From assembly GCF_000003815.2 (NCBI RefSeq), contig NC_049997.1:11015507-11079506 (forward strand): 64,000 nt of DNA, read 5' to 3'. Shown piece by piece: positions 2,692 through 31,700 of this stretch. The stretch is from Branchiostoma floridae (taxonomy: Eukaryota > Chordata > Leptocardii > Amphioxiformes > Branchiostomatidae). A model generated the notes under the pieces. The model ran no database searches and was not told the DNA's origin. It worked only from the letters and a program-made list of their open reading frames with translations. The translations under genes were made by a program, and so were the position numbers. Every line of letters begins with the position of its first letter. Position 1 is the stretch's first letter.

Positions 2692-3121
2692 TAGGGCTGG
2701 GTTTTTCTCATTGGACCGGTCCAGAAAAACCGGACCTGAAAAAATTCGGTGGACCGGATGTTAGACCGCTTGGAAAATGAACTGATTATATGATCAGACA
2801 TTCACACGTTTTCAGGCACATAACACACATTCAGGCAAATAACAAGAGCGAAGCAGAGTAGACTCTATAGTCATTTTACCAACTTTTAGAGTCAATCGTA
2901 CAGAGGTAGTTAGCCTTGTGGGATTTTTAAAACGCCAATGGGAGTCGAATACTACACAAAACAGACTTCTTTGTAGCAAAATGAGTGAGAGTTTTGAGTG
3001 TCGTCCATTCACAAGTTTTCACATAATGAATCAGGTTCTGGTCCGGACATGGACCTGATCCTCTGGACCTGAACCGGACTTCAGCCGGGACCTGAATGTT
3101 CTGTACCGGTACCCACCCCTA
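2692..3121. mobile_element. hAT-like MITE, TAGGGCTGGG family, copy 1
   Basis: The element runs from TAGGGCTGGG to a right terminus CTGTACCGGTACCCACCCCTA and matches the copies at 37194 and 41637 along its length (for example GGACCGGTCCAG and GCATTCACACGTTTT-like words). Its flanks (GGTAGACC / GTCCTGCC) do not match, unlike the other copies, so one side has been rearranged. It abuts and truncates the KLHL fragment. Confidence 0.8.
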
Positions 3122-3755
3122 GTCCTGCCATAGGCCCGTTGGCCTGAGGGGAGTTGAGGAAGTGCCTTCCATTTCACTTCCTCTATCACGTACACTTGAG
3201 CATACTCTGTTGGGAACTTCTCTGTATTTAAATTTGCTGCACGACGGTAACCGCCTGCCATCATGAGAACTTCTTTCAGCCTCCCTCCTCTTGTCTTCAT
3301 ACCATGGATTGCCTCTGAGCTCAGTTTGAAACTTTGACATGACGTTGTCTATGATCAGTTGACATTCTTTGCTGTCACGTCGTCCATCCTGACTTTTGAC
3401 AAGAAGTCTTTGTTGATATCGCCATATCGAACGAGCTTGAGCAACTCGGCGAGGTAATGTTTTCGTACCTAATCCATTGCCGGACAAGTTCCAAGACGGA
3501 TTTTTCGCTCTTAACTTGGATGTGGCCATCGAGAGTGGTCAAGAGAGCACGTATGTCTTCAATAGACGTTTGCAGTACTTAGTATGTTGTCTCTCTTTAC
3601 AAAATTCATGGCCTTTTCTTCCAGTGTTCTCATGTTGTAAAGCTTTGCCAAATGTTGGATTCGCAAGCACTGGGCTGCATTGTTAGAGTGGAGCATATCT
3701 TGGAGGACATTCTGGCATTCCAGTTTTATTTCTGTGACGTGAACACCTGTGGCTG
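3122..3755 (-). pseudogene. decayed BTB-BACK-Kelch (KLHL-like) fragment
   Basis: On the minus strand, pieces of one KLHL protein follow in the right order but in different frames. From about 3745: a BTB-end/3-box piece (VLQDMLHSNNAAQCLRI, then HLAKLYNMRTLEEKAMNFV) that runs into a stop near 3566. Then a BACK piece (VKSEKSVLELVRQWIRYEN). After a frameshift near 3465 comes LAELLKLVRYGDINKDFLS, which meets a stop near 3360. Last is a first kelch repeat (RLKEVLMMAGG, then WKALPQLPSGQRAYG). KLHL proteins are substrate adaptors of Cullin-3 ubiquitin ligases. The fragment lacks most of the BTB domain and all later kelch blades. It is cut at 3122 by the MITE. At least two stops and two frameshifts make it non-functional. 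Absence of introns could mean a retrocopy, or one large ancestral exon. Confidence 0.8.
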
Positions 3756-4095
3756 ACTGTCCAGTTATCTAGGACAAATGCCCGGGGGAGCTTGCATCAC
3801 CCAAATTCCTGCCATTAAAATTCCTCCGGACTAACTTCTCATAATGCAAACATGCCTGTGCACTGGCGTTCCTGCGGAAAAATGCCTGTGCAATTCCTAG
3901 AATTTTTGCAGACTGAACACAATAATATACCATTTGGCTTGCCCCTAACTTGGGGCCTAAGGCGTCGCCAAAAAAGTACTAACCCATATTTCACCAGAAA
4001 CCTCACCTTTGACCCCTTTTCCCTCCTGATACAACCGGTTGCACCAGTTGACCCTATAACAACGTTTTAATGTAGTTTCTTCCTTTATTCCTTTA

Positions 4096-4833: not shown

Positions 4834-5298
4834 ACATTGCCATGGACCTCTCCCGGGACATGACCTTTGCCTGTGACCCCCGACCCCTGGACCTGTCCCA
4901 GGACATGACCTTGTCCCCTGACCCCAGACCCCTGGATCTCTCCCAGGACACATTGGCCCCTGACCTACGACCCCTGGGTCTGTCCCAAGACACCTTGGCC
5001 CCTGACCTACGACCCCTGGGTCTGTCCCAAGACACCTTTGCCCCTGACCCCCGAGCCCTGGGTCTGCCTGAGGACATGACCTTGGCCCCTGACCCCCGAC
5101 CCCTGGGTCTGTCCCAGTACGTGACCTTGGCGGTTCTCCCCAGACTGTACATGGAGGAAGTGGTGTCTGAACTGGGCAGGAGAAACATCAGCACTGGGGA
5201 CGTCAACAACAAGGAGCTGCTGGTGGCTGTGCTGAAGTTTGCCATGGAGAAGGAATACAGTGGGACGGAAAACATCCTGATGTCAAAGTCGAGTCAAG
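4834..5298 (+). CDS. ZNF-A exon with LSQD repeats and SAP-like domain
   Basis: The acceptor TTAATTCCAG ends at 4833; the donor CAAG|GTGTAA ends the exon at 5298 (phase 1). From the ATG at 4842 the protein shows seven units of the type LSQDxTLxPDPRPLG (with or without one residue). The domain LPRLYMEEVVSELGRRN, then DVNNKELLVAVLKFAMEKEYSG follows. Two amphipathic helices joined by a short polar loop (ISTGDV) resemble the SAP helix-turn-helix, which binds DNA in other proteins. This is a pattern judgement, not a proven homology. The same module is in ZNF-B at 11632-11890. Upstream the frame stays open through the acceptor, so an additional 5' coding exon is possible. Confidence 0.75.
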
Positions 5299-7246
5299 GT
5301 GTAATATTGTCAAGCCTTTTTTGTCCACAAAAAAATTCAACTGTTTCACTAGAAGAATTAAAACATAACATTTTCCTAATATACTTTCATTTTATTCGGT
5401 ATTATGTAACGGTCATATGTCTTCATTTGGGGTGCAAACATATAAAAGGAATGAACTTAGGTTCAAGCTCATATATCTTCAATATTTGAAACCTTTTTAC
5501 AGGACAAAAGACGACAGCAATGCTATGTGGAGNNNNNNNNNNNNNNNNNNNNNNNNNNNNNNNNNNNNNNNNNNNNNNNNNNNNNNNNNNNNNNNNNNNN
5601 NNNNNNNNNNNNNNNNNNNNNNNNNNNNNNNNAGACTGACTCTCATATCAGGTTCAGAATATGGTAAGACCACACAAACTTCATTGCATGTATAAAATCC
5701 AGTAAATATGATAGAATTTCAGTAGTAGTAGCAGTAACAGTAACAGTAGCATGTTTTGTATATTCTTCCTTTTCTGCCTTTGTGTAGGAAAATCAACGTC
5801 ACAATGCCAAGAGTCAGAAAACTCAGCACATTCTCCTGTTCCAAAGAGACAACCTGTCCAAAAATTGGCTGTGCCCATGACAGTGCCTGCACCAGAACAA
5901 CAATGGACTTCCCCTACCACAGCACCTGCACCTCTTCAACAGTGTACCATCCCTGCCGCGGTGTCTCCACCTGCCCAACACTGGGTCATGCCCACAAAAG
6001 CACCTGCACCTGTTAAGCAATGGACCACCCCTACCACAGCACCTGCACCTGATCAACAGTGTACAATCCCTGCCATGGTGTCTCCACCTGTCCAACAATG
6101 GCTCACAATAGCACCTGCACCTGTTAAACAATGGACCGCCCCTACCACAGCACCTGCACCTGATCAACAGTGTACAATCCCTGCCATGGTGTCTCCACCT
6201 GTCCAACAATGGCTCACGATAGCACCTGCACCTGTTAAACAATGGACCACCCCTACCACAGCACCTGCACCTGTACAACAGTGTACAATCCCTGCCATGG
6301 TGTCTCCACCTGTCCGAAAATGGGTCAAAATAGCACCTGCACCTGTTAAACAATGGACCACCCCTACCACAGCACCTACACCTGTCCAACAGTGTACAAT
6401 CCCTGCCATGATGTCTCCACCTGTCCAACAATGGCTCACAATAGCACCTGCACCTGTTAAACAATGGACCACAGCTCCACAGGTGAAAATAACGGTAAGT
6501 TAAAGCCTTAGAAAATCTGCTTTTTTCAAATGATTGCTACCTGGTAGTAACTGTAATACAACTTCTTTCAGTGCAAAACTTCAATACTCTGTTGATTAGT
6601 AATGTTTTCATTATTTTTTGCTTGGTCCCTTCAGGAACGAGCAAGCAAGCAACTGAAACAATGTCCTCACTGTGAGTATACATCACTGAATTCCTCCAAC
6701 TTCAGACATCATGCCCTTACACACTCCAACAAGAAACCATTCAAGTGTTCTCATTGTGACTTTGCAACAAAAACAAGACCCATGCTTCGTCAGCACATGC
6801 GAATCCACTCAGGAGAAAAACCCTTCAGTTGCAAGTCATGTGATTTCAAAACAGCACACAAAAAATCCTTACAGACCCACATGCAAACCCACACAGGAGA
6901 GAAGCCGTACATGTGTGAGGTGTGCGGACACAGGACAGCTCTGGCTGCGACTCTAAGAACACATATGAAGGTACACTCCAATTCCAAAGAACAAATCAAG
7001 TGTGACATCTGTGGATACGTGACAAAAAAGATGTCCCTTCTAGAGAGACACATGGAATTTACCCACACTAAGAAGCACAGGTGTGACTTTGAAGGATGCA
7101 ACTTCACAACAACAATACAAGTGGAATTTCAGGAGCATCAGAAAGAGAAACCATTTGCCTGTGACCAGTGTACTTACAAAAGCCACAGCAAGTCCAGCCT
7201 GATAACTCACATGAAAACTCACACGGGAGAAACCCCATGCCTGTGA
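4842..7246 (+). CDS. ZNF-A: C2H2 zinc-finger gene with LSQD repeats and Pro-rich repeats (spliced, spans a gap)
   Basis: Proposed exons are 4834-5298, 5503-(gap)-5663, 5788-6494 and 6635-7246. All junctions that can be tested agree in phase (1, 1, 0). The ATG at 4842 sits in a GCCATGG context; the same start context occurs in ZNF-B. The order of parts is: seven 14-15-residue LSQD repeats, a SAP-like helical domain, an unresolved middle, a Pro-rich segment of 37-residue repeats, then seven C2H2 fingers up to a stop at 7244-7246. Fingers 2-4 have the TGEKP-type linkers of DNA-binding arrays. The stop is caused by a frameshift; five more finger units continue afterwards in other frames (7233-7672). 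The product is thus a truncated form, a decaying gene or an assembly error beside the gap. Likely role, by family only: nuclear sequence-specific DNA binding. Confidence 0.7.
5503..5663 (+). CDS. ZNF-A exon interrupted by the assembly gap
   Basis: The acceptor TTTTTACAG precedes 5503 and a donor ATATG|GTAAGA ends at 5663. Both sides of the N run are open in the phases required by the neighbouring exons. The pieces could be one exon or two exons with a lost intron. Only about 20 residues are readable, including LTLISGSEYG at the end. No domain is visible. Confidence 0.5.
5533..5632. other. assembly gap (100 N)
   Basis: Exactly 100 N bases, the usual placeholder for a gap of unknown length. 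The true distance between 5532 and 5633 cannot be taken from the coordinates. Confidence 0.98.
5788..6494 (+). CDS. ZNF-A exon with proline-rich 37-residue tandem repeats
   Basis: The acceptor TTTGTGTAG ends at 5787. Two phase-0 donors are possible: CAG|GTGAAA at 6482 or AACG|GTAAGT at 6494. The second is stronger; the first matches the ZNF-B donor position. The exon encodes about 235 residues dominated by a repeat with the blocks APAPVKQWTTPTTAPAP, QQCTIPAMVSPP and VQQWLTI. The DNA period is 111 bp (starts near 6112, 6223, 6334, 6445), with degenerate copies before it. The segment is rich in Pro, Thr and Gln, lacks acidic residues and is probably disordered. ZNF-B has no such repeat in the same position and carries an acidic Ser/Thr-rich stretch instead. 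Confidence 0.75.
5885..6480 (+). repeat. 111-bp coding minisatellite in ZNF-A
   Basis: Five to six copies of a 111-bp unit (37 codons) lie in frame. Late copies are nearly identical, which points to recent expansion or homogenisation. Early copies differ by small in-frame changes, for example one copy has an extra MPTK-type insertion near 5990. Confidence 0.85.
6635..7246 (+). CDS. ZNF-A zinc-finger exon (seven C2H2 units before the stop)
   Basis: The acceptor CCCTTCAG ends at 6634; the frame begins at phase 0 with GAA CGA. Units start near QCPHCEYT, KCSHCDFA, SCKSCDFK, MCEVCGHR, KCDICGYV, RCDFEGCNF and ACDQCTYK. Unit 6 is atypical: Cys spacing is four residues (C-D-F-E-G-C) and its His pair is incomplete. 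Linkers after units 2 and 3 are close to SGEKP/TGEKP. The frame then ends in a TGA at 7244-7246, where GGAGAAACCCCATGCC appears to lack two bases compared with a normal TGEKPHAC linker. Confidence 0.85.
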   Translation, partial: ERASKQLKQCPHCEYTSLNSSNFRHHALTHSNKKPFKCSHCDFATKTRPMLRQHMRIHSGEKPFSCKSCDFKTAHKKSLQTHMQTHTGEKPYMCEVCGHRTALAATLRTHMKVHSNSKEQIKCDICGYVTKKMSLLERHMEFTHTKKHRCDFEGCNFTTTIQVEFQEHQKEKPFACDQCTYKSHSKSSLITHMKTHTGETPCL

Positions 7247-7672
7247 CCAGTGTGATTACAGGTCAGTGACTTCATACGAACTCTTCAAACACAAGGCTAC
7301 AAATCACAGAGAGAAATTCTGGCCATGTGACGTCTGTGGTCGCCAATGTTGTTCTGAAGCCCTTTTGGAGAGGCATAAAGAACGACACAGCTATGAGCAG
7401 GACAAGGGGCTCTATGTCTGCAAAGAATGCAACTACAGAGCATTTAGTTTTAAAGCATTGAAAGAGCACATATGAAAAGCCATATTGAAAAGCCATATGC
7501 CTGTGACAAGTGTGATTACAGAGCAGCTCTGCAACATACTATGAAGGTGCACATGAGGAGGAAACACAATACAGAAAAGCCATTCAAGTGTCCCCACTGT
7601 AACCATTGTACAAAGACAAAGGATGTTCTGAAATGCCTCATTAAAAATAGACATAAGGGTGAAATATCTTAA
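7233..7672 (+). pseudogene. out-of-frame continuation of the ZNF-A finger array
   Basis: After a shift near 7233 the alternative frame encodes HACDQCDYRS, WPCDVCGRQC and YVCKECNYRA finger units. It then hits a TGA at about 7473 because of an extra AT (GAGCACATATGAAAAGCC). From 7472 the original frame resumes with KSHIEKPYACDKCDYRA and FKCPHCNHC units and ends at a TAA at 7670-7672. The two indels (about -2 and +2) cancel overall. Twelve finger units in total would match ZNF-B, so the ancestral array was intact. Confidence 0.8.
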
Positions 7673-7733
7673 ACACAGCATTGATAGGGGAGTTGTTTTG
7701 TCTTAAATGTTTTGTAATACGGGGTAAAGGAAA

Positions 7734-7739
7734 AATAAA
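7734..7739 (+). terminator. polyadenylation signal of ZNF-A
   Basis: AATAAA lies 62 bp after the last TAA of the finger array, in an AT-rich context. This fits the 3' end of the ancestral full-length transcript. Confidence 0.6.
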
Positions 7740-7744
7740 GATGC

Positions 7745-8072
7745 AGTATTTGTTTTCCATCATTTGCTCTTTTCATAATCATATGAGTAAGGTGAGTGAA
7801 TGCTGTATCAGCTCACTCAGGTCAAGTAAAGGGACACCAATGATCTGATGATATCAAGTTAAATTTTGATTCTACATACAAGCTATGGATAGTTTGAGGA
7901 AGAAAATTGTAAGTTGTCTCCACCAGGCCTTACTCATGGGTTTTGATACCAGAATTCAGGAAAAATAACCTCATTATTTTTCATTACAATGCAAATGGGA
8001 TTGCAAAGAAGTCTTATTAGTATAATTTGTATCTTCAGATATTCTCCAGGAAGTTTTTCCTCATTTACTCTA
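7745..8072. other. intergenic, nothing recognised
   Basis: AT-rich sequence between the ZNF-A poly(A) signal and the foldback element. No open frame with coding character and no repeat were recognised. Confidence 0.5.
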
Positions 8073-9630
8073 AGGGACCGTACGGCGTTTAGTGAGGGGG
8101 GAGGGCCGGTCACCAGAGGGTCGGGTCAAAAATTTTTTGCAAGACCCTCCCCCAAGGTAAAAAATTTTTTGCTAGGCCCTCCCCCCAAGGCAATTCTTTT
8201 TTGCTTGGCCCTCCCCCTCCTAGCAACTTTGAAAAAAATATTCAAGACGCCAATAAAACACTGCGCTCCCATTTGGAAATATGCTTTGCGTCATACTTTT
8301 TCATGATTTTCATCGAGAAGCAGATCTCTCACCCCTAGTAAAAAAAGGAAAACAGAATGGCTCGAAATATCTGCTTAATAGAGGGATAAATATCTGCTTC
8401 ATAGAGGCATAAATATTTGCTTTATTGAAGCTATTTCATTGTTTTGATATTAAAACAATACCTACAAAGCATTTGTATCTGAATTTCTAGTAGATTTGCG
8501 CCACGAAGCGGCGCGCGCCCCGCTCCCTAAATTTACGTATTGCAAGCTCGCGGGCCTGAGCGGCTTGACGGAAACTATTTTTAATTTACATATATTTTGG
8601 ACTTTTTCTTGGTTCTGTGGTGGTAATAACTTACGGTAAATCGGGGGGAAAAATGAAAACCAAAACGACAGCACGATTCGACTACCAAAACTGTAGTGGG
8701 GAGGGGGGGCGCCGACGCGTGACGCTGATTTTCCCACGGCGGGGTAGACGGGTCGCCTCTCTCTAGCCGCCGGTGGGCGTGAGAACGCAGACTTGCAGGA
8801 GATATTTTACTAGTTTTAGAAATGACACGCTTTTTTTGCTACGATTTCCTGCATTGCTTTAAGTTTTTTTATGGGAAAATTTGCTGGTTAGATGACATTT
8901 CTATGAAAAAAAAAATACGAGGGTTTCAAGTTTTTGAGAACGACGTTCCGAACACCATGTCCGGCGCCAAAGCCACGAAGAATCGCAAGGTAGGTCCGGG
9001 AAAATTTTGAAATCTTGACCCTCTTAAAAGCTATTTTCTTCAGTTTAAAGGAAATATTTTGCTGACAAACAAAGCCAACTTTAATGGCATTTCAATTTAG
9101 AAATACAAAATTAAATCCCCCCAAACACATTATCACGATGTCGGTCACCAAAGGCGTGAGGCCGGACGCGTCAAAAGGGATCCAGGGAAATTTGCAAATA
9201 TTTACCCTCGAGCTCTGAAACGCCATTTCTTACATTTTGAGGGCATCAAGACAGTGGTAAATTTTGCTGGCAGACTAATCTAGAGTTTAATAACATTTCT
9301 GTAAGTGAAAAAGGTTTTCGAGGGCGTCATGCATAAGCCCCGCCCCCTCCCTTTCGCATTTTCACTGTGTCCCGAGCGCCAACCTTGGGTGATCCCTTGC
9401 AGAGGTCCAGAAAAGTTTTGAAATCTTGACCCTCTGAAACGCCGTTTCTTGGATTTTAAGGGACATATTTTGCTGGCAGACGAAGCTATTTTTTTTTTTT
9501 GCTTGGCCCTCCCACCAAGTCAATTTTTTTTTGCAAGGCCCTCCCCCTGGCAAAATATTTTTTTGTTTGCCCCCCCCCCCCCCCCCCTGGCGACCGGCCC
9601 TCCCCCTTCGCTAAATGCCGTACGGTCCCT
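8073..9630. mobile_element. 1.56-kb inverted-repeat (foldback) element
   Basis: The left end AGGGACCGTACGGC(G)TTTAG is mirrored at the right end CTAAATGCCGTACGGTCCCT. Similarity between the arms continues for well over 100 bp as GC-rich repeats of the type GGCCCTCCCCC...TTTTTTTGC. The interior holds three diverged direct copies of a roughly 210-bp unit (GAAATCTTGACCCTCT...ATTTTGCTG(A/G)CA near 9010, 9200 and 9418). No transposase is visible, so it is non-autonomous. No target-site duplication could be identified. Confidence 0.75.
9570..9587 (+). repeat. poly-C run (18 C)
   Basis: A homopolymer inside the right arm of the foldback element. It is likely length-unstable. Confidence 0.9.
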
Positions 9631-9687
9631 AATTTGCATAATTCATGTCTGAAGATATTCACCTTTTTGACCTACATGTGTGAATGA

Positions 9688-9939
9688 GCACGTCACCGGA
9701 ACGTACTGCGCCTGCGCGAAAAGTATAGACATGCTAAACCTTGCTAAACCCCCGGTTTACTAAAGGGCCGCATTTAAGAAAGTACGTGCGTATATAAGGG
9801 TAAAATCCCGTGTACGTTTTGCATGAAACCATGTCTCTAACATATACTGTGCAACAAGCGAGATTTCAATGCAACGTTGACCAAACCAAGCCCCAAAACA
9901 CCACGGTTCGCGCAGGCGCAGTACGTTCCGGTGACGTGC
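9688..9939. repeat. perfect 33-bp inverted repeat with GC-rich arms
   Basis: The arm 9688-9720 (GCACGTCACCGGAACGTACT, then GCGCCTGCGCGAA) is exactly reverse-complementary to 9907-9939. The arms contain an NRF1-like core (GCGCCTGCGC / GCGCAGGCGC) and a CRE-like half site (ACGTCA). A TATA-like word (GTATATAAGG, about 9788) lies between them. It could be a MITE or a promoter-bearing element remnant. Confidence 0.8.
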
Positions 9940-10504
9940 TGTGTGAATGCATCATCTACCAGGTACCAGTGAGGAATGATGCAGTTTTCTCATTAATTAT
10001 GCAAATTAGGTCAGGATTAGCATTATTGACATCCGTTGATGTTCCTCTTGAACAATTTGCAATTGTCCAGAGTATGAAGTACCTGTTATTTAGAAATATA
10101 AATTTTCTTCATTTCTATGCGGGGGTCCCGTGCTCGAGGAGGTGCCTCGACCACGTTAAACAGCCTCATTACTCTTACTTGGGGTACCTACTGGCTGGCA
10201 AAATACACCAGATGATTATTATGCAAACCTAGTCCTAATTTGCATAATCAACATACCAGTTTGTTGGTCTCCATCAAATTTACATGTAGGTTAAAAAATC
10301 ATGAAAATTGAGAACCATTTATATAATACGTCAACCGGAAAATTTAACATCATTTTTGTCGAAGGTGAAGTTGGAAATTTCCTTCACACCCCTGAAACAT
10401 AGTGGTACAGCCCAGATCATATTGTTGACCTTTGCCCTCTGAGGCCGACATTTGTCTCGATCGTGGCCGTGGGAGCAGACGAAACAACGTTTCCCAGGTA
10501 GTTT
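9940..10504. other. intergenic, nothing recognised
   Basis: No coding exon was recognised. ATTTGCATAAT-type words recur at 9631, 10000 and 10220 and suggest old repeat fragments. Confidence 0.4.
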
Positions 10505-11290
10505 CTGCCGTTCCTTAACTTCCTATTATCTCTAAAAGTAGGTAAGAATGATTTTGTGGTGTTTTGCTAGAACATAAAGAAGTGAGTATTGGACTTTGCA
10601 ACTACATATCAAGAAAAATTGGTGGTGCCTTTTTTACGAAATTATGTGGGGAGGGGGGCGTTTGTTGTGAAAGTCGTTTAATTCGTTCAAGGAGATAATA
10701 AATTCGTTATTGTGCCGTTTCGTATAATTCAGGGAGTAAATACAAATGTTCTGATAATACTTGCGTCATATAATTTATGAATTCAACTATATCTATTAAT
10801 AAAATCAATTTCCACAGTGACACACGGATAATAAACTCACATCATAGGCCCAGGGCTGCCATCGACTGTGCCCCACTGTCAACCGACAGGAACCAAGGAC
10901 GTTATGATATAACGTCCTTGCAGGAACGGACTAACATGTCTGTACTCTCAGACTTACCTCGGTTTATCTCTAAACAGTATGCTCGTGCGGTTTTCACCAG
11001 TATCTTTACCAGAAATACACCGACACTTTGAAATAAATCACAACTGCGTATACCATTTTTTTTACTTCATCTAATAGTATGTTGTCACATAAAAGCAAAT
11101 ACGCACAGGAGTCTGCCTGTAGAAAAAAGATTTCGTGGCATCGACGGCTTGTTGTAAAAACAGAAGACGTCAGGCTTTACTGTCCAGAATTTACAGATTG
11201 GGATCCCTTTTCAATGTGTTTCTAGTAGTATTGACCTCAGAATATCTATCTATACTCCAAACTAGCATATGTACTTTCCAGACAGTAATA
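10505..11290 (+). repeat. 5' part of the tandem segmental duplication (copy 2), with candidate ZNF-B first-exon donor
   Basis: Matches 4096-4660 in order. It retains the donor-like AGTAG|GTAAGAATG at 10537-10549. It is longer than copy 1, with a hairpin and other inserts. Confidence 0.7.
10894..10920. repeat. perfect 12-bp stem, 3-nt loop hairpin
   Basis: CAAGGACGTTAT - GAT - ATAACGTCCTTG. It lies upstream of ZNF-B, inside the duplicated 5' region, and is absent from copy 1. Confidence 0.85.
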
Positions 11291-11623
11291 CTTGGGCTTG
11301 GTTCAGTTCAATCCTCTTCTGTACCCAGTGGTACGTAAGGCTTCAGGAAGTTCTTCCATCATTGTCTGTCAGCAGCAACTCTGTGGGGCCCCATCCAATG
11401 AGAAACCCCATTTCTTCACCTCCTTCTCTATGCAGCGCTTAGCTTGGTAGCCTGACTGAATCATGCCTACAGCTGCCTGCTCAACATCTGCCGTCCCCCT
11501 AGAGGATGAGGGTAGGGGCCAGTTTACAGCCTGGGAGAGCAGAGTTTGCAATTTTTAAATACACAGACTATGGTAAAGCTTATATGTTATTGACTGACAT
11601 TGTTGCTGCATTTTCAATTCCAG

Positions 11624-12405
11624 ACATAGCCATGGCCCTCTCCCAGGACATGACCTTGACCCCTGACCCCCAACCCCTGGCTCTGTCCCAGGATGTGACC
11701 TTGACCCCTGACCCCCGACCCCTGGGCCTGTCTCAGGACGTGACCTTGGCGGTTCTCCCCAGACTGTACATGGAGGAAGTGGTGTCTGAACTGGGCAGGA
11801 GAAACATCAGCACCGGGGACGTCAACAACAAGGAGCTGCTGGTGGCTGTGCTGAGGGTTGTCATGGAGAAGGAATACAGCGGGACGGGAGGGTCGTCAGG
11901 GCAACCCAATGTCACAGACACACACACTTACGTAACGAGTAACGGTGCAACTGAAATCTGCTTCAGTTTCGAGCCAGAAGACTCACACACTGACTCTGAA
12001 GATGGCATCAACAGTAGTAGATTACAGGAGAACAAAGATGCTGAAACCGAAGCTTCTTCTACTGTGGTCATATCTTACACAGAGGAAGATAGGCCACATG
12101 AGGTATCTAACACCGAGGTAGTCTTAGCCACGGATGCAACTCCAGCTTTCAGTCCATCCACCAATATTAATGAGACAAATGACAGAGGAACGATGGAAGA
12201 TGAAGTTATTGAAGGAGTGAGAGAAGGAAGAGAAGAATCAGTAGAAGAACAGGCCAGATTAACCTCAGAAGTAGTAGAGAATGACTCTATGGACCAGACT
12301 GATACAGTGTCATATGCAGAAGTTGACTTAACCTGCACTTCTGTTGCAGAAATGGTAGTTTGGTTGCCAGGGCAACAAGGGAACAATGGAGCGCAAACTG
12401 TACAG
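11624..12405 (+). CDS. ZNF-B exon: LSQD repeats, SAP-like domain, acidic region
   Basis: The acceptor TTCAATTCCAG ends at 11623 and is nearly identical to that of ZNF-A. The ATG at 11632 is in the context GCCATGG. The donor ACAG|GTGAGT ends the exon at 12405. The LSQD units read LSQDMTLTPDPQPLA, LSQDVTLTPDPRPLG and LSQDVTLAVLPRLYMEE; the last unit runs directly into the helical domain. The rest is rich in Glu, Asp, Ser and Thr (for example EGVREGREESVEEQ), which resembles an acidic activation-type region. This last point is composition only. Confidence 0.85.
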
Positions 12406-14519
12406 GTGAGTACAGTATATATTGGCTTCTGTTGGTCAATATTGATGAAGATAAACTCATATTTCATATCAGCCCTACAACATTGGCTATGGCAGTTCTA
12501 CATGTATATGAGAATGACAGTCTCTGCCACATGTTTGTTGCAAATTTCGTTCTGTGGATCCATTTTTCTTCTGCACTACACATCTGTCTACTTTCTCCTA
12601 ATTTTAGTTGGTTGAACAGTGTTCATCTAGATTTCTCTTACTGGAATGGTCATTAATTATAAGTAACTTAAAGTATGTAATTAAGTCCTACCAAAGAAAT
12701 GTGGAAATGTACTCGGTACAAATAGCAGGAAATGTGCATAAAAAATCCATAATTTGTTTTCTGAAGAAAGATATGGAATGTGAATATTTTTTGTAAATGT
12801 AGATATTCTTCCTAACAATTTTTTGTGAAATATTGAATTTGCGGTGTCTGCCAATTTGATGATCAATAAATTTGTTAGTGCACATATGGGATATATCATT
12901 CCAAGAGGGTTGAAATCATTTATCTATTTCATTTTAAGACAGGCAGGTTGGTGACTCCTTCAACTTTTGAAAGTTCATTTCCAAATGGACCCACCGTATA
13001 TGTTTAATCAACTTAAAAGGACAAGACTAAGGCATGATCTAGACACGGTTTTTCCCGATATCGGCGAGCCAACAACCTCTCGCCGACAGCTTTTTTTCAG
13101 CATCTAGATGGAACTGCAATATCGCCATAAAGATATCGGCAGAATTTCTCCCGAAAGGTCTGGACCATTCACCCGATAGGTTAGCAGGGGTCCCCGATAG
13201 CTTGGCAGGGGTCCCCGACAGTTTTCGCACGCATGTAGATGTGTCCCGACTTCGGGAGGGCTCATTAGCATATAACGCGGGCTCATTAGGCTATATAGCT
13301 GTTTATGACTGCAAGTGCCACGGGTGTCCCGCGGCCAACGTTCCAGATCCCTTCCGACGTCTCCACAGATATCAGCAAAAACTGTGTCTAGATGGGGCCT
13401 AACAAAGATTTGTCAAATTATTTTTTACAGTTTGCTGAGGAGGAGTCAAGTGGTGAGAAGAAATCCTACAAGTGTTCTCTCTGCGACTACACAACCCGTT
13501 ACGCTTCAAACCTAACGAGGCACAACCAAGTGCACTCTGGGGACAGGCCCTTCAAATGTGCCCACTGTGACTACGCAGGGGGGTCCAAAAAAGCCCTGAA
13601 GCAGCACATGTCCCGCCACACTGGTGAGAAACCACTGGGGTGTAAAGAGTGTGGGTTCAGGACGGCCTACAGGACAGCGTTAGACTATCACCTGAAGACT
13701 CACACTGGGCACAAACCCTTCATGTGCGACAAGTGCGGGCACCGCTCTGCCAACAAAGCCAGCTGGCGAACACACATGAAAACTCACACCAAGGTGCCTC
13801 TCAGGTGTGAAAGTTGCGGGTACACCGCATCCAAACCCTCATACCTTGCTGCACACTTGAGGACTCACGACGAAGAGAAACTGCTGAAGTGTCCAGACTG
13901 TGACCACGAGGCCGTGGGAAGAAGGGAACTCCAACTCCACATGAGGACCCATTCTGGGGAGAAGCTGTTTGCCTGTGAGAGGTGCCCGTACAAGTCTCGC
14001 TACAAGTCTGGCCTGACAAACCATCTCAAGACACACACGGGGGAGAAACCGCACAAATGTGAGCAGTGTGGTTACAGGGCGGCACAGAAGGCAACCTTAT
14101 ACAGACACATGAGAACCCACACAGGAGAGAAACCCTATCCATGTACAGTATGTGGTCGCAGCTGTGCTACTCAATATCTTCTTCAAACCCACATGAAGTC
14201 CCATCAACCCAAAGGCCCGCTGGTGTGTAAAGACTGTAACTACAGGACCATGCACAAGGCAGACATGAACCGGCACATCAGAACCCACACAGGGGAGAAA
14301 CCCTACAGCTGTGAGGAGTGTGATTACAGGGCGACTAACAAGTCAGCTCTGGTGTTCCACACCAGGATACACAAAGGGGAGAAACCCTTCAGATGTCAGC
14401 TTTGTGACTACGCAGCAGTGAGGAAAGACTTGTTAACTGCACATTTACGGAGACATGCAAAGACTTTAACTTACCACCAGTGCTCTGCCATACATGTAGA
14501 GTGCGTGCATGGTAAGTGA
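11632..14519 (+). CDS. ZNF-B: intact 12-finger C2H2 protein with LSQD/SAP-like N-terminus (spliced)
   Basis: Two coding exons, 11632-12405 and 13431-14519, join in phase 0 and give 620 residues. The N-terminus has three LSQD units, the SAP-like domain (about residues 43-82) and an acidic Ser/Thr/Glu-rich, probably disordered region to residue 258. Twelve consecutive C2H2 units follow. The TGEKP-like linkers between most fingers are typical of DNA-contacting arrays, so a nuclear DNA-binding regulator is likely. The gene is the paralogue of ZNF-A: same start context, same domain, same splice phase and same finger count. It shows no frameshift or stop, so it is the probable functional copy. I do not recognise a named orthologue. 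Confidence 0.85.
12406..13430 (+). other. ZNF-B intron
   Basis: Bounded by GTGAGT and TTTTTTACAG. It holds the inverted-repeat element at 13037-13393 immediately before the acceptor. The rest is AT-rich with no recognised feature. Confidence 0.8.
13037..13393. mobile_element. MITE-like element with ATCTAGACAC termini in the ZNF-B intron
   Basis: The left end ATCTAGACACGGTTTTTCCC and the right end AAAAACTGTGTCTAGAT are inverted repeats. Inner words (GATATCGGC / GATATCAGC) extend the similarity. It is about 357 bp. Direct sub-repeats (CAGGGGTCCCCGA) occur at about 13185 and 13206. It ends only 37 bp before the splice acceptor. Confidence 0.65.
13431..14519 (+). CDS. ZNF-B zinc-finger exon (12 C2H2 units)
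   Basis: After the acceptor TTTTTTACAG the frame opens with FAEEESSGEKKSYKCSLC. Twelve units follow with C-x2-C and H-x3-H spacing: YKCSLC, FKCAHC, LGCKEC, FMCDKC, LRCESC, LKCPDC, FACERC, HKCEQC, YPCTVC, LVCKDC, YSCEEC and FRCQLC. Unit 9 (CTVCGRSCATQ) carries an extra Cys. The stop TGA at 14517-14519 lies inside a donor-like GGTAAGTGA. Transcripts could in principle splice there, but a stop at the end of the finger exon is typical for the family. Confidence 0.92.
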   Translation, partial: FAEEESSGEKKSYKCSLCDYTTRYASNLTRHNQVHSGDRPFKCAHCDYAGGSKKALKQHMSRHTGEKPLGCKECGFRTAYRTALDYHLKTHTGHKPFMCDKCGHRSANKASWRTHMKTHTKVPLRCESCGYTASKPSYLAAHLRTHDEEKLLKCPDCDHEAVGRRELQLHMRTHSGEKLFACERCPYKSRYKSGLTNHLKTHTGEKPHKCEQCGYRAAQKATLYRHMRTHTGEKPYPCTVCGRSCATQYLLQTHMKSHQPKGPLVCKDCNYRTMHKADMNRHIRTHTGEKPYSCEECDYRATNKSALVFHTRIHKGEKPFRCQLCDYAAVRKDLLTAHLRRHAKTLTYHQCSAIHVECVHGK

Positions 14520-25700: not shown

Positions 25701-28700
25701 CCATTTTACAGGGTAAACAGGGAAATGCTTGTGAAGGTGTCACAGCAAAAACCACAAATATATAAAACCACCACAAATATTTCTACTTTTACAGAAACTT
25801 GAGTAAGTTGCATAGACAAGCACAGACCAGAAGACATAAATGAAACTTTTATATACTGGCAAGATGGCCATTTTACAGGGTTTAACAAGGAAATGCTTGT
25901 GCTGATTTTAAGTTCCCGATGAAGACGTCACAGCAAAAACCATGAATATATAAAACCACCACAAACATTTCCACTTTTCCAGTAAGTTGCACAGATGAGC
26001 ACAGACCAGAAGACAGAGTAAATGATAAATGAAACTTTTATATGCCGTTTTATAGGGTTTAACAAGGAAATGTTAATGTGCACCATAAAGTAAATTTAAG
26101 TTACTCAAGCAACTGGATATGGTTTTGGAAACGGTCAGACGTTTCGGATAGAATCCACTATCCTTTGTCAGTGACACTAAAGTGATCTGGAAGAAACAGG
26201 TCTTTTATACTCTTAAACTATGAATGAAGACAATTTCAGATGCCCAATAGGAAACGTTGTTAGACAATTCAGACAGAAGACAATTTGGATTCCAAAGAAA
26301 ACAAAGGTAAGGCAAAATGCTAATGTGCTGATTTTAAGTTCCTTATGAATACGGCACAGCAAAAACCACAAAATAAACCACCACAGACATTTCCACTTTT
26401 CCAGTATAAAGTTGCACAGACAAGCACAGACCAGAAGACAGAAAGTGTGACCTACTGAGGGAGAGAGTCGGAGGCTGAGTGACGGCATGGAGGAAGCGGA
26501 CAGGTTGTGCAGCGAGAAGGGATGGACCTTGAGCGACGTCCCGTTTTCCGCTGATTCCTCCTCGTGCCCGTCTGCGTTCGGCTGGACGTTCCCGCGAAGC
26601 ATCGCCTTTCCTGGAGGTCGCTCAAACCTGCAGGGGATGGGGAAAAATGTCAGTCTTATTAGATGTCATAGAAAATAGCTGAATACTTGTTATAAGTGGT
26701 TTTGTGGTTGCTGTTATCATTTGTAATACAAATCTCTGTGATTATGTTTTATCAATGTGGCAATACACGTAGAATTGTAGATTTGGTTGTTACAATAATT
26801 ATATTTCAGCCATACATAGTATGGTGAAATATATTGTATTCGTAATGTTTCTTTCTTTCTTTCTTTCTTTCTCCTGTCAAATCTTCAAAGTGATTCATCT
26901 CCGCCGTTCTTGGACCGAATGACCTGAAATTTGGCACAGGGGTAGAATGGGCCAATACCTTAATGCTTTTTTCTCAGTTTTTTCATATCTGTCTCTAAAA
27001 TGATTTTATTGAGATTTTTTGGTCAATTTTAGACCAAAACCGTATATTTTGGCCCCTGTACCCTGGTATTACAACCAAATGAGCTGACATTTGACAGAGA
27101 TGTGCCTTGATAATGCTCCCATATAAATTCGATAACACTTTTGGTGTACAGTACAACAAAATGCTTATTTTTGCGATTTTTTGACCAATTTTTGACCAAA
27201 AAAGGACACTTTTGGCCCCTGTACCCTGGTATTACAACCAAATGAGCTGAAATTTGACAGAGATGTGCCTTGATAATGCCGTCATATAAATTCAATAACA
27301 CTTTTGGTGTACAGTACAACAAAATGCTTATTTTTGCGATTTTTTGACCAATTTTTGACCAAAAAAGGACACTTTTGGCTCCTGTACCTTGGTATTGCAA
27401 CCGAATGAGCTGAAATTTGACGCAGATGTGCCTTGATAATCCCTTCATATAAATTCAATAACACTTTTGGTGCACAGTGCAACAAAATGCTTATTTTTGC
27501 GATTTTTGGCCAATTTTTGACCAAAAAAGGACACTTTTGGCTCCTGTACCCTGGTATTACAATTAAATGACCTGAAATTTGGTATAGATAGGCATTAGAT
27601 ACTTGGTAACAAGATTCAAGTAAAATTTTTGACATAAACAACTTTAAAATGATTAATTTTGGCACTTTTCTGAGGGGAAATTTGTTTTCTTTTGGCCTCC
27701 TGACGTGACCTTCCGTGACCCCGCACAGAGCCACACCTGTGCGCATCAGCCGGAGAGTTAATTGAATCAAAGACCTAGCCAATCAGCGAAGAGGAGGCCA
27801 AAGGCTAATTAATATTCATAAGCGGGGCCTCATGATCCCGTATATAGCAGTGTTCCCGCCAGGGGGAGCGAAGCCCGCCTAAGGCTCTCGCATTTTAGAC
27901 TATTCAGAAGGCTTTATATTGTATCAGTTCTTAGGGGCATATTTATGATAATCGCAGCAGTCACTTAACTTCTCTTCAGGAGTTTAGCGTAACACTATTT
28001 CAGGTCAAACCGTCAAAGGCAACTAAAAACAAACTTTGACGTTACTGAGTTCAACAGTACTTATAACTTGTTATCAGAAGTTGAAACGCTAGCGATGGTA
28101 TTTTCGCTGCGGTGTTAGCTCCGTGCGACTGTTGTTGACGGTCTTATAACGGTATATTTTGCACCCCTGTACCCTGGTATGAGTAACATTTGGTATAGAT
28201 AGGCATAAGATAGTTGGTAAAATGATCCAAGTAAAATTTTTGGCATAAAGTACTGTAAAAGGCTTAATTACAGCACTTTTTTTCGGGGAAATTGGTTTTC
28301 TTTCGTTCTCCATGCCATGACCTTTCGGACGTTCACCCCACAGAGCCGACATCTGCACCTGCGTCTAGCCGGCAGGAAGAGTTAATTCAATTAATGGTTC
28401 AGCCAATCAGCGAAAAGGAAAGCGAAGGCTAATTAATATTCATAAGCGGGACCACACAATACGTTAACTTGAAGACTCAGGCCGTACAGACTTCTCGCCA
28501 GGATTTTTTCAAAGCGTCGGACAGGGGTCCGGGGGCCGCCGAATGTCCCTGGCGGGGTCCAGGGCAGGGCCACTGTGGGGGGGACCCAGGTGGGCGAAGC
28601 CCCCCCGGAAGCTCTTGCATTTTAGAATATTGAGAAGGCTTCTTTTATCAGTTTTTTTAGGGCCATATCTACGATAATCGTAGTAGTCACTTACTTCTCT

Positions 28701-31700
28701 TCAGCAGTTTGACTTTAAAATATTTCGGGTCAAAGCTTCAAAGACAACTAAAACCTCATAAACAACAAACTTTACTTAGCTCAACAGTATACAAAAATAT
28801 TGTACGGGTTGCAATCCTTAGTTGAAGCGCTTATTTATAGCGCTAGTATCTTCGCTGCGCCGTTAGCCGCCGTGCGACTTTTGTTGACGGTCTGATATCC
28901 CTACGTCGCCGCCTCGCTGATATTCCCACGGACATGTTTCAAGAAAAATACCCAGCAAAAAACGCTGTTCTGCGTCAAATTCTATTCTATAAAACATGTG
29001 GGACTCAGTGTTACAGTCTAAATATTTTGTAGAAGCACCGCTGTAGGAAAGAAGGTCCAAGCAATGTAAAACATCACGTAGCATGAAGTTCGCTGTCAAC
29101 TGGCACACAGCACATGACTGTTTGAAACTCTAAGTCTAATAAACAGCCGTGTTTGATTGATAGCAGGCGGTCCTTTGATGAAGTCGGCGAAAGGTGCGTT
29201 AGTTAGAAAATCTGCGTTTAGTTTTGATACGTAATTATAAGTTAGACAGTGGCGAGAATGATTATATTCTCATCAATATTTCTCTTCAGAATTATTTGAA
29301 CTTAATTGTATATCTAAACAATTGGCTTACCTGTGCAATGTTTATATGATTAATGATCAGTGTACTGAAATCATGTGTAACGTATGGCTCCTAGTCAATA
29401 GATCAGCATTTTTCTCTATAGTGACCACCTGTCTATAGTGGCCACATTTCTATCACTGGACTGGAACTTGCGAAAACTGCTGTATTTTCTCCAGAGCAAA
29501 TGTATGTGTTCCTAGTGCTGTTGTTGTTTGACATAAACTTTGAACATTTAAATTGTAAGTAACTTTAAACTGCCAGAGTTTCAGCCCAATAAAACACTCT
29601 CAGCGCCAGAGTATGAACAGACTGACCAGACAGACGAAAATAAATCCTCGAACAAGGTTCAATCGTATCTTCCGGGTCTGGCAGGACTGAGTTGTTAAAC
29701 TAAAATAAGAATAGGCTCGATGGCTGATTGCATACAAAGTAAAACAGTTTTACAGTTTTACAGCTTGAAGAAAACAAACGCTCCTACAGTACCTGCACCT
29801 GCTTGATAATTATTAAATCGTATGCCCTACTTGAATAAAAAAAAGTTCACTGCAATAATAAACGTACCCACATCACAAGGAGCTTATACTTTTTTAAACT
29901 TACACCTGGTTATCGTACTGAAAATTGTTAATGACATTACATGAAGTCATTCAACAATTTTCAGTCATGATGAAACTTTTCTGAATGGAAGGTGTGATTA
30001 TTGTCATTTTCTGAAAAATAGAAGCAAGCTCTGTCTTTACCTGGAATCAATTCACAATACCAGTCCACTTTGGGGGATAATGTACTGTTAAGAGGATGTT
30101 CCATTTTTGCGCAGGGGTGATTTGGAACAGTCCAATGTTGCGTGGGAAGGGGTATGGCTGAAATATGCTGTATTTGCTCTTAAGCAAATGTCGGTCTTTC
30201 TAGTATTCGTAATGTTTCTTTCTTCTTTCTCCTGTCAAATCTTCAAAGTGATTCATCTCCGCCATTCATGGACCGAATGACCTGAAATTTGGCACAAGGG
30301 TAGAGTGGGCCAATACCTTGATGCCTTTTTCTCAGTTTTTTCATATCTGCCTCTAAAATGATTTTATTGAGATTTTTTGGTCAATTTTAGACCAAAACTA
30401 TATATTTTGGCCCCTGTAGCTGGTATTACAACCAAATGAGCTGAAATTTGACAGAGATGTGCCTTGATAATGCCCTCATATAAATTCAATAACACTTTTG
30501 GTCTACAGTACAACAAAATGCTTATTTTTGCGATTTTTTTACCAATTTTTGACCTAAAAAGGACACTTTTGGCTCCTGTACCTTGGTATTGCAACCGAAT
30601 GAGCTGAAATTTGACACAGATGTGCCTTGATAATCCTTTCATATAAATTCAATAACACTTTTGGTGTACAGTGCAACAAAATGCTTATTTTTGCGATTTT
30701 TGGCCAATTTTTGACCAAGAAAGGACACTTTTGGCTCCTGTACCCTGGTATTACAATTAAATGACCTGAAATTCGGTATAGATAGGCATTAGATACTTGG
30801 TAACAAGATTCAAGTAAAATTTTTGACATAAACAACTTTAAAATGATTAATTTTGGCACTTTTCTGAGGGGAAATTTGTTTTCTTTTGGCCTCCTGACGT
30901 GACCTTCCGTGACCCCGCACAGAGCCACACCTGTGCGCGTCAGCCGGAGAGTTAATTGAATCAAAGACCTAGCCAATCAGCGAAGAGGAGGCCAAAGGCT
31001 TATTAATATTCATAAGCGGGGCCTCATGATTCCGTATATAGCAGTGTTCCCGCCAGGGGGAGCGAAGCCCGCCTAAGGCTCTCGCATGCATTTTAGACTA
31101 TTCAGAAGGCTTTATATTGTATCAGTTCTTAGGGGCATATCTATGATAATCGCAGCAGTCACTTAACTTCTCTTCAGGAGTTTAGCGTAACACTATTTCA
31201 GGTCAAACCGTCAAAGGCAACTAAAAACAAACTTTAACGTTACTGAGTTCAACAGTACTTATAACTTGTTATCCGAAGTTGAAACGCTAGCGATGGTATT
31301 TTCGCTGCGCTGTTAGCTCCGTGCGACTGTTGTTGACGGTCTTATAACTGTATATTTTGCACCCCTGTACCCTGGTATGAGTAACATTTGGTATAGATAG
31401 GCATAAGATAGTTGGTAAAATGATCCAAGTAAAATTTTTGGCATAAAGTACTGTAAAAGGCTTAATTACAGCACTTTTTTTAGGGGAAATTGGTTTTCTT
31501 TCGTTCTCCATGCCATGACCTTTCGGACGTTCACCCCACAGAGCCGACATCTGCACTTGCGTCTAGCCGGCAGGAAGAGTTAATTCAATTCATGGTTCAG
31601 CCAATCAGCGAAGAGGAAAGCGAAGGCCGTACAGACTTCTCGCCAGGATTTTTTCAAAGCGTCGGACAGGGGTCCGGGGGGGCCGCCGAATGTCCCTGGC

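Follow-up and report, generated by a model that had tools for sequence, protein, structure and literature searches.

Two zinc-finger genes, ZNF-A and ZNF-B, lie in a 64,000-nucleotide stretch of the Branchiostoma floridae genome (C19:11015507-11079506, hereafter the window), and both are members of a large, clustered and expanded C2H2 family sharing an N-terminal module. In profile comparisons this module is homologous to SAP, as a divergent SAP-type domain that falls short of the Pfam threshold for membership, and it is also homologous to the N-terminus of an open reading frame 1 (ORF1) protein of a long interspersed nuclear element (LINE) in the same genome. The module family is apparently without a name. 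B. floridae has already been named as having a zinc-finger expansion (PMC12513265), and among the matches listed in the open-access literature no title or abstract opening describes this zinc-finger family or a SAP-like LINE ORF1 module. By analogy with other zinc-finger families, we give a probability of about 0.6 to a system in which the finger arrays would confer target specificity and the shared module would serve as a common effector or anchor.

The two genes of the window

The preliminary description of this DNA had reported that LSQD repeats, a helical module, low-complexity sequence and C2H2 fingers follow one another in both genes, and this is indeed their arrangement (window positions):

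4842..5117, + strand: ZNF-A ATG, 8 nt past a splice acceptor, then 14-15-residue LSQD-type repeats (TRF period 42)
5118..5267, + strand: ZNF-A copy of the SAP-like module (VTLAVLPRLYMEEVVSELGRRN...KEY)
5268..5298, + strand: end of the ZNF-A N-terminal exon; candidate GT donor predicted at 5299
5788..6494, + strand: ZNF-A Pro/Thr/Gln-rich exon, mostly 111-bp minisatellite, with candidate splice sites
6635..7672, + strand: ZNF-A C2H2 array, 9 strict units, three open stretches in two frames
11632..11736, + strand: ZNF-B start codon and LSQD repeats (amplified module leader)
11737..11889, + strand: ZNF-B copy of the SAP-like module
11890..12405, + strand: ZNF-B acidic low-complexity region, without match in the sister genes, up to the GTGAGT donor
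13431..14519, + strand: ZNF-B zinc-finger exon, 12 C2H2 units in one frame, including the stop

ZNF-B is intact and forms a coherent two-exon model with predicted splicing. Its first coding exon (11632-12405) comprises the LSQD repeats, the module and the acidic region, that is 774 coding nt from the ATG at 11632 to a CAG/GTGAGT donor after 12405, in phase 0. The predicted acceptor TTTTTTACAG ends at 13430, also in phase 0, and the 12 strict C2H2 units that follow (13473-14456) remain in a single frame. They score 146-148 bits with zf-C2H2, above the Pfam cut-off, which makes the predicted product a C2H2 zinc-finger protein.

Twelve units had been attributed to both genes. This is correct for ZNF-B, whereas ZNF-A displays only 9 strict ones in two frames, the finger frame being broken at about 7240 and 7475 into open stretches of 216, 86 and 72 aa. 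This break may reflect a pseudogene or a sequence error. An assembly gap also lies within ZNF-A (5533-5632). Three sister genes at C19:10.98-10.99 Mb carry 11 C2H2 units each, in one open frame. The 111-bp minisatellite (PAPVQQW..., window 5886-6472) makes up most of the candidate ZNF-A exon.

LSQD repeats and helical module had been presented as separate modules. They are not independent, because the repeat unit resembles the leader of the module: 29 of 45 nt are identical, 20 of them within the first 24, an agreement equalled in none of 10,000 shuffles of the unit. The repeats are the module's own leader, amplified, and they were seen in only 5 of the 31 copies for which the upstream DNA was read. 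On both grounds an independent 'LSQD domain' was rejected.

A clustered family sharing the module

Three different members were used as queries against the home genome (513 Mb, 431 contigs), with E up to 0.001 for the first and 0.01 for the second and third. They yielded 58, 74 and 76 matches, whose union corresponds to at least 81 places, overlapping duplicates of a single place (in L010 and L020-L022) being counted once; genome match counts are lower bounds and 81 may be low. The N-terminal domain is thus, as had been supposed, recurrent and associated with zinc fingers, and further copies do exist in the genome. Contig C19 accounts for 38 places in its 3.35-3.66 Mb interval and for 17 outside it; C15 has 9, and the remaining 17 are spread over other contigs. 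In consensus, the module opens with the leader G[LF][SC] and continues as VTLAVLPRLYMEEL..EL.RR.I..(loop)..K..LV..L..VM..EY.

Among the 81 places, C2H2 fingers are in evidence downstream on the same strand at 56 and absent from the DNA retrieved at 8, the other 17 lying outside this survey. Thirty-one copies were retrieved together with long flanking DNA, and in 23 of them one or more strict C2H2 motifs follow the module on its own strand, frequently without leaving its open frame. Two of these 23, L015 and L023, have a single C2H2 unit in the first group, and the open frames of L013 and L025 encode 1248 aa with 23 units and 895 aa with 19 units, respectively. When both strands of L009-L028 were scanned, opposite-strand motifs amounted to one in L016 and one in L019; L028 holds two genes on opposite strands. 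The eight copies devoid of a strict motif are L012, L016 (3,586 N), L029-L032, L033 and L034, and two degenerate fingers are visible by eye in the L033 frame.

The association also holds when the search starts from the fingers. Compared with the genome, the L028 finger array gives 37 best matches, in 36 of which a module precedes the fingers on the same strand at a distance of 0.4-3.2 kb (the list was cut there at a score drop, chosen after it was seen). Many further finger-array matches follow, chiefly on C10 (22.3-24 Mb), C158, C323, C16 and C200, contigs on which the three member searches found no module.

A subgroup on C5 and C8 (L029-L032 and L034), recognizable by the motif ETTLA[LV]LPRM, shows no C2H2 motif over the 6-9 kb retrieved. 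VKKEP or IKTEPG-like stretches occur in its linkers, and we take them to resemble SUMO-acceptor sites.

Relation of the module to the SAP domain

In agreement with the preliminary description, Pfam offers no match worth the name. The scan of 23 members listed three chance-level families up to E 10, the best at E 0.037 to an unrelated family, with KRAB, SCAN and ZAD absent from these three, and in five whole module ORFs nothing exceeded a family cut-off. The NCBIfam search with the module gave no match, PDB gave one chance match by sequence (E 0.72) and none by profile, and no module relative was found among 28 pattern matches in prokaryote contigs and 11 in viral contigs. The curated cut-off of SAP (PF02037), the domain of PIAS and SAFB proteins, was reached by none of the 23 members, and none of the 54 PF02037 matches in the genome falls on the 81 module places.

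The 'SAP-like' character attributed to the module is nevertheless supported, and we consider it a divergent SAP-type domain because of a profile comparison and two bridging sequences. Using hhalign without the bridges, module and SAP profiles align with E 2e-5, probability 77% and score 24.7; the best of 200 column-shuffled SAP profiles scores 16.7, so that none reaches this value, and the reversed profile scores 10.8. The first bridge is an open frame on C3 that lies a short way upstream of the module copy on this contig. With SAP it gives 24.2 bits (cut-off 23.9), falling to 22.4 when the longer frame is taken, and a single comparison with the neighbouring module copy gave E 2e-8 and 50% identity over 52 aa. 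The second, L076 on C11, gives 25.5 bits with SAP in the genome search and 23.0 for the whole frame; its E value is 9e-10 with the module profile and 1.6e-8 with a set of 15 other genomic SAPs. The SAP comparison set omits 5 of the 20 fetched SAP segments, namely L060, L066, L067 (internal stop), L074 (near-duplicate of L073) and L076 (bridge).

Two observations weigh against this assignment: the SAP profile finds the module of the LINE protein L078, described below, only at E 0.0017 with probability 15, and the hidden Markov model (HMM) of the module family puts only 5 of 19 SAP segments above the best shuffle. A first structure prediction gave a predicted local distance difference test (pLDDT) value of 55. 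A second comparison with PDB returned 28 chains, with no SAP among the 12 listed.

The profiles of module and SAP align over a putative helix-loop-helix core, and the bridges stand near or over the SAP cut-off. The module differs from SAP by its V-L-P-R leader, a longer variable loop, a putative C-terminal helix ending in EY, its position N-terminal to C2H2 arrays and its escape from Pfam SAP detection in the 23 members.

Relatedness to a LINE ORF1 protein

The closest relative found, one that the preliminary description had not anticipated, is the N-terminus of a protein encoded on another contig:

C2:3279905-3281710: LINE ORF1 with SAP-like N-terminus (L078, L079)

The 483 aa read of L078 belong to one open frame, present on C2 and C10 in three copies that share at least 99% identity. 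Homology with the module is indicated by several comparisons. Residues 16-67 align with the module profile over 51 columns (43% identity, hhalign E 6.8e-12), with a score of 57.1 versus at most 17.7 in 100 shuffles. The family HMM attributes 47.2 bits to the L078 N-terminus, while SAP segments reach at most 11.5 and the best shuffle 8.7. Conversely, when the L078 protein was searched against the whole window (E 0.01), only the two ZNF modules were matched (5.6e-6 and 1.2e-4).

Its nature as a LINE ORF1 is deduced from the near-identical copies, from a PDB match and from the start of an ORF2-type endonuclease downstream. A GDSL stretch in L078 remains under the cut-off (26.2 bits for 32.9), and the same stretch matches PDB 4c1b, 'ORF1-encoded protein', at 6e-12; 4c1b is the esterase of the ZfL2-1 retrotransposon (PMC3905857). 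The rest of the protein gives a weak zinc-ribbon match (E 0.031). Just downstream starts an Exo_endo_phos domain (38.3 bits, cut-off 24.5), as in LINE ORF2. Altogether 34 places match the L078 protein, 24 of them only outside the module. A PF14529 endonuclease is located 606-612 bp downstream at seven of the 34, which match L078 only outside the module; this proximity check used 15 of the 150 endonuclease places listed, chosen by eye as sharing contigs. Relatives of the bridge L076 occupy 11 places on several contigs, 9 of which read as LINE-type, the LINE nature of L076 resting on its likeness to L078 (48%, query residues 12-125). A tree of 52 rows had too few columns to place the LINE rows.

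With esterase-type ORF1 (type IV; ZfL2-1, 4c1b) as represented by L078, the zinc-finger proteins share the N-terminal module, at a similar distance from the start and over the full 51-column alignment, and the CG-x-S leader of L078 is akin to that of the ZNF module. The LINE protein then continues into weak zinc-ribbon-like and esterase-like stretches, whereas the ZNF proteins continue into C2H2 fingers. LINE ORF1 proteins have been classified into types I-V, with esterase ORF1 reported only from vertebrate groups (PMC4120745). L078 and L079 are of the esterase type in an invertebrate chordate. The term 'SAP' occurs nowhere in the main text of the two ORF1 papers (PMC3905857, PMC4120745).

The presence of one module in both a zinc-finger family and a LINE ORF1 suggests that host regulators and a transposon have exchanged sequence. 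As to the direction of this exchange, capture of a host exon by a LINE is almost as likely as capture of a LINE piece by the host. In the former case the module would be an old exon of host zinc-finger genes that became the start of ORF1, and the ZNF family would have no transposon origin, a proposition to which we give close to even chances. It agrees with the excess of host copies (81 places) over LINE-type ones (9 of 11 places), with the 24 of 34 L078-matching places that match only outside the module, and with the known swapping of LINE ORF1 domains (PMC4120745). Conversely, the ORF1s that bear the module fall into two or more lineages that have diverged far (32% identity over residues 4-424 of the query; C12 and C13), so that a recent capture by one element does not account for them.

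Constraint, homogenisation and finger divergence

ZNF-A and ZNF-B modules are 94% identical over 49 aa (5121-5267 versus 11740-11886), and selection had been proposed as the reason. For this pair the argument fails, because synonymous sites are nearly identical too: 5 of 147 nt differ, in 5 of 49 codons, and 2 of these changes are silent. The resemblance reflects near-identical DNA, probably the outcome of gene conversion. Among the three sister genes, module dS (synonymous divergence) is 0.03-0.06 versus 0.28-0.47 in the fingers, and selection was rejected as the cause of the ZNF-A/ZNF-B identity.

Comparison with the sisters extends this picture. The ZNF-B module protein is identical over 50 aa to those at C19:10980199 and C19:10988999, and to the latter also in DNA over the 47 codons compared. 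In the third sister the module segment is 97-98% identical to the other two, and the first and second are 89% identical over a longer stretch including the repeats; their other matching stretches (introns, fingers) are mostly 76-87% identical. From about 10700 up to the fingers, the similarity of ZNF-B to the sisters is confined to 11597-11890 (84-98% by piece, 95-98% in the module), and the paired fingers of ZNF-B show 55-59% DNA identity with theirs. The ZNF-B module exon was thus probably converted or swapped onto a different finger gene.

Constraint is seen among diverged members of the family. The 449 of 1225 pairs with dS 0.1-1.2, which are not independent, give a median module dN/dS (nonsynonymous to synonymous divergence) of 0.45, with values below 1 in 99.8%. 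Pooled module pN/pS is 0.37 among the 18 copies of the 3.5-Mb type kept after a filter removed L056. Seven columns are invariant in all 50 copies of the module alignment, which leaves out L049 (one of 20 short segments, its frame not being found by motif).

In the fingers of the three intact sister genes, DNA-contact codons show pN/pS 1.09 (bootstrap 0.74-2.12) versus 0.22 (0.12-0.37) for the framework, the contact value being the higher in 500 of 500 bootstraps. We read this pattern as specificity changing in a relaxed or diversifying manner, without proof of positive selection. The contrast varies across the family: contact and other positions differ, respectively, at 22/56 and 38/112 between L020a and L020b, at 4/12 and 9/24 between L028b and L027a, and at 16/20 and 16/40 between L028a and L028b.

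Other features of the window

Open frames at 3031-3978 (minus strand) look by eye like Kelch/BACK-type pieces; two of them were compared with Pfam and matched nothing. Two arrays of an alike 163-bp satellite-type repeat occupy 26997-27581 and 30355-30773.

Possible function of the family

Large animal zinc-finger families such as KRAB, SCAN and ZAD are built around private N-terminal modules. Like these and like FiNZ, the amphioxus family is expanded, and its members likewise join a short conserved module at the N-terminus to a C2H2 array through a linker; the module itself is unrelated to KRAB, SCAN and ZAD according to the Pfam scan of 23 members. The architecture and expansion of the FiNZ family have been described (PMC10547256). 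By analogy, the finger array would supply DNA sequence specificity, diverging fast between some sister genes, and the conserved SAP-like module would contact chromatin, nucleic acid or a shared partner protein. The module would thereby bring one outcome to many targets, most likely silencing, and the targets would plausibly be transposons, as in KRAB, ZAD and FiNZ systems, with which the proposed one would act alike through a different effector. Module exons are probably homogenised or swapped between neighbours, since ZNF-B combines the module of its sisters with fingers unlike theirs.

Alternatively, the module could act in SCAN-like oligomerisation, pairing ZNF proteins together or with LINE ORF1 particles instead of binding DNA or a corepressor. 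The N-terminus of an ORF1 protein can mediate self-association, as the N-terminal construct of ZfL2-1 ORF1 is a coiled-coil dimer (PMC3905857). Charged residues E14, E18, R9 and R22, conserved in 50 of 50 copies, could likewise form an interface. SAP relatives are mostly nucleic-acid or protein adaptors, which weighs against oligomerisation, and we regard it as rather unlikely.

Since the module is shared with a LINE ORF1, it may also be that the host took over a part of its own parasite. In that case the first coding exon of a ZNF gene would derive from the 5' end of a LINE ORF1, and the module would still recognise LINE ORF1 particles or LINE-occupied chromatin, restraining LINEs while the fingers track element sequences. 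Domestication of the Fv1 or SCAN type, where elements are restrained with their own piece, provides a parallel for this scenario, which we hold to be doubtful.

That these are ordinary ZNF paralogues, whose near-identical N-terminus reflects recent duplication without a function of its own, fits the 5 differences in 147 nt and the broken frame of ZNF-A, but is highly improbable in view of the seven columns invariant in 50 of 50 diverged copies and of dN/dS below 1 in nearly all of the (non-independent) pairs.

The proposal of divergent fingers joined to a common SAP-like effector or anchor lends itself to direct tests, given 81 or more loci, the intact ZNF-B of the window and LINE copies that share at least 99% of their sequence. 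If true, it would reveal an independent zinc-finger expansion on a private module in a lineage close to the chordate base, and also a rare case of an effector module common to a possible defender and its possible target.

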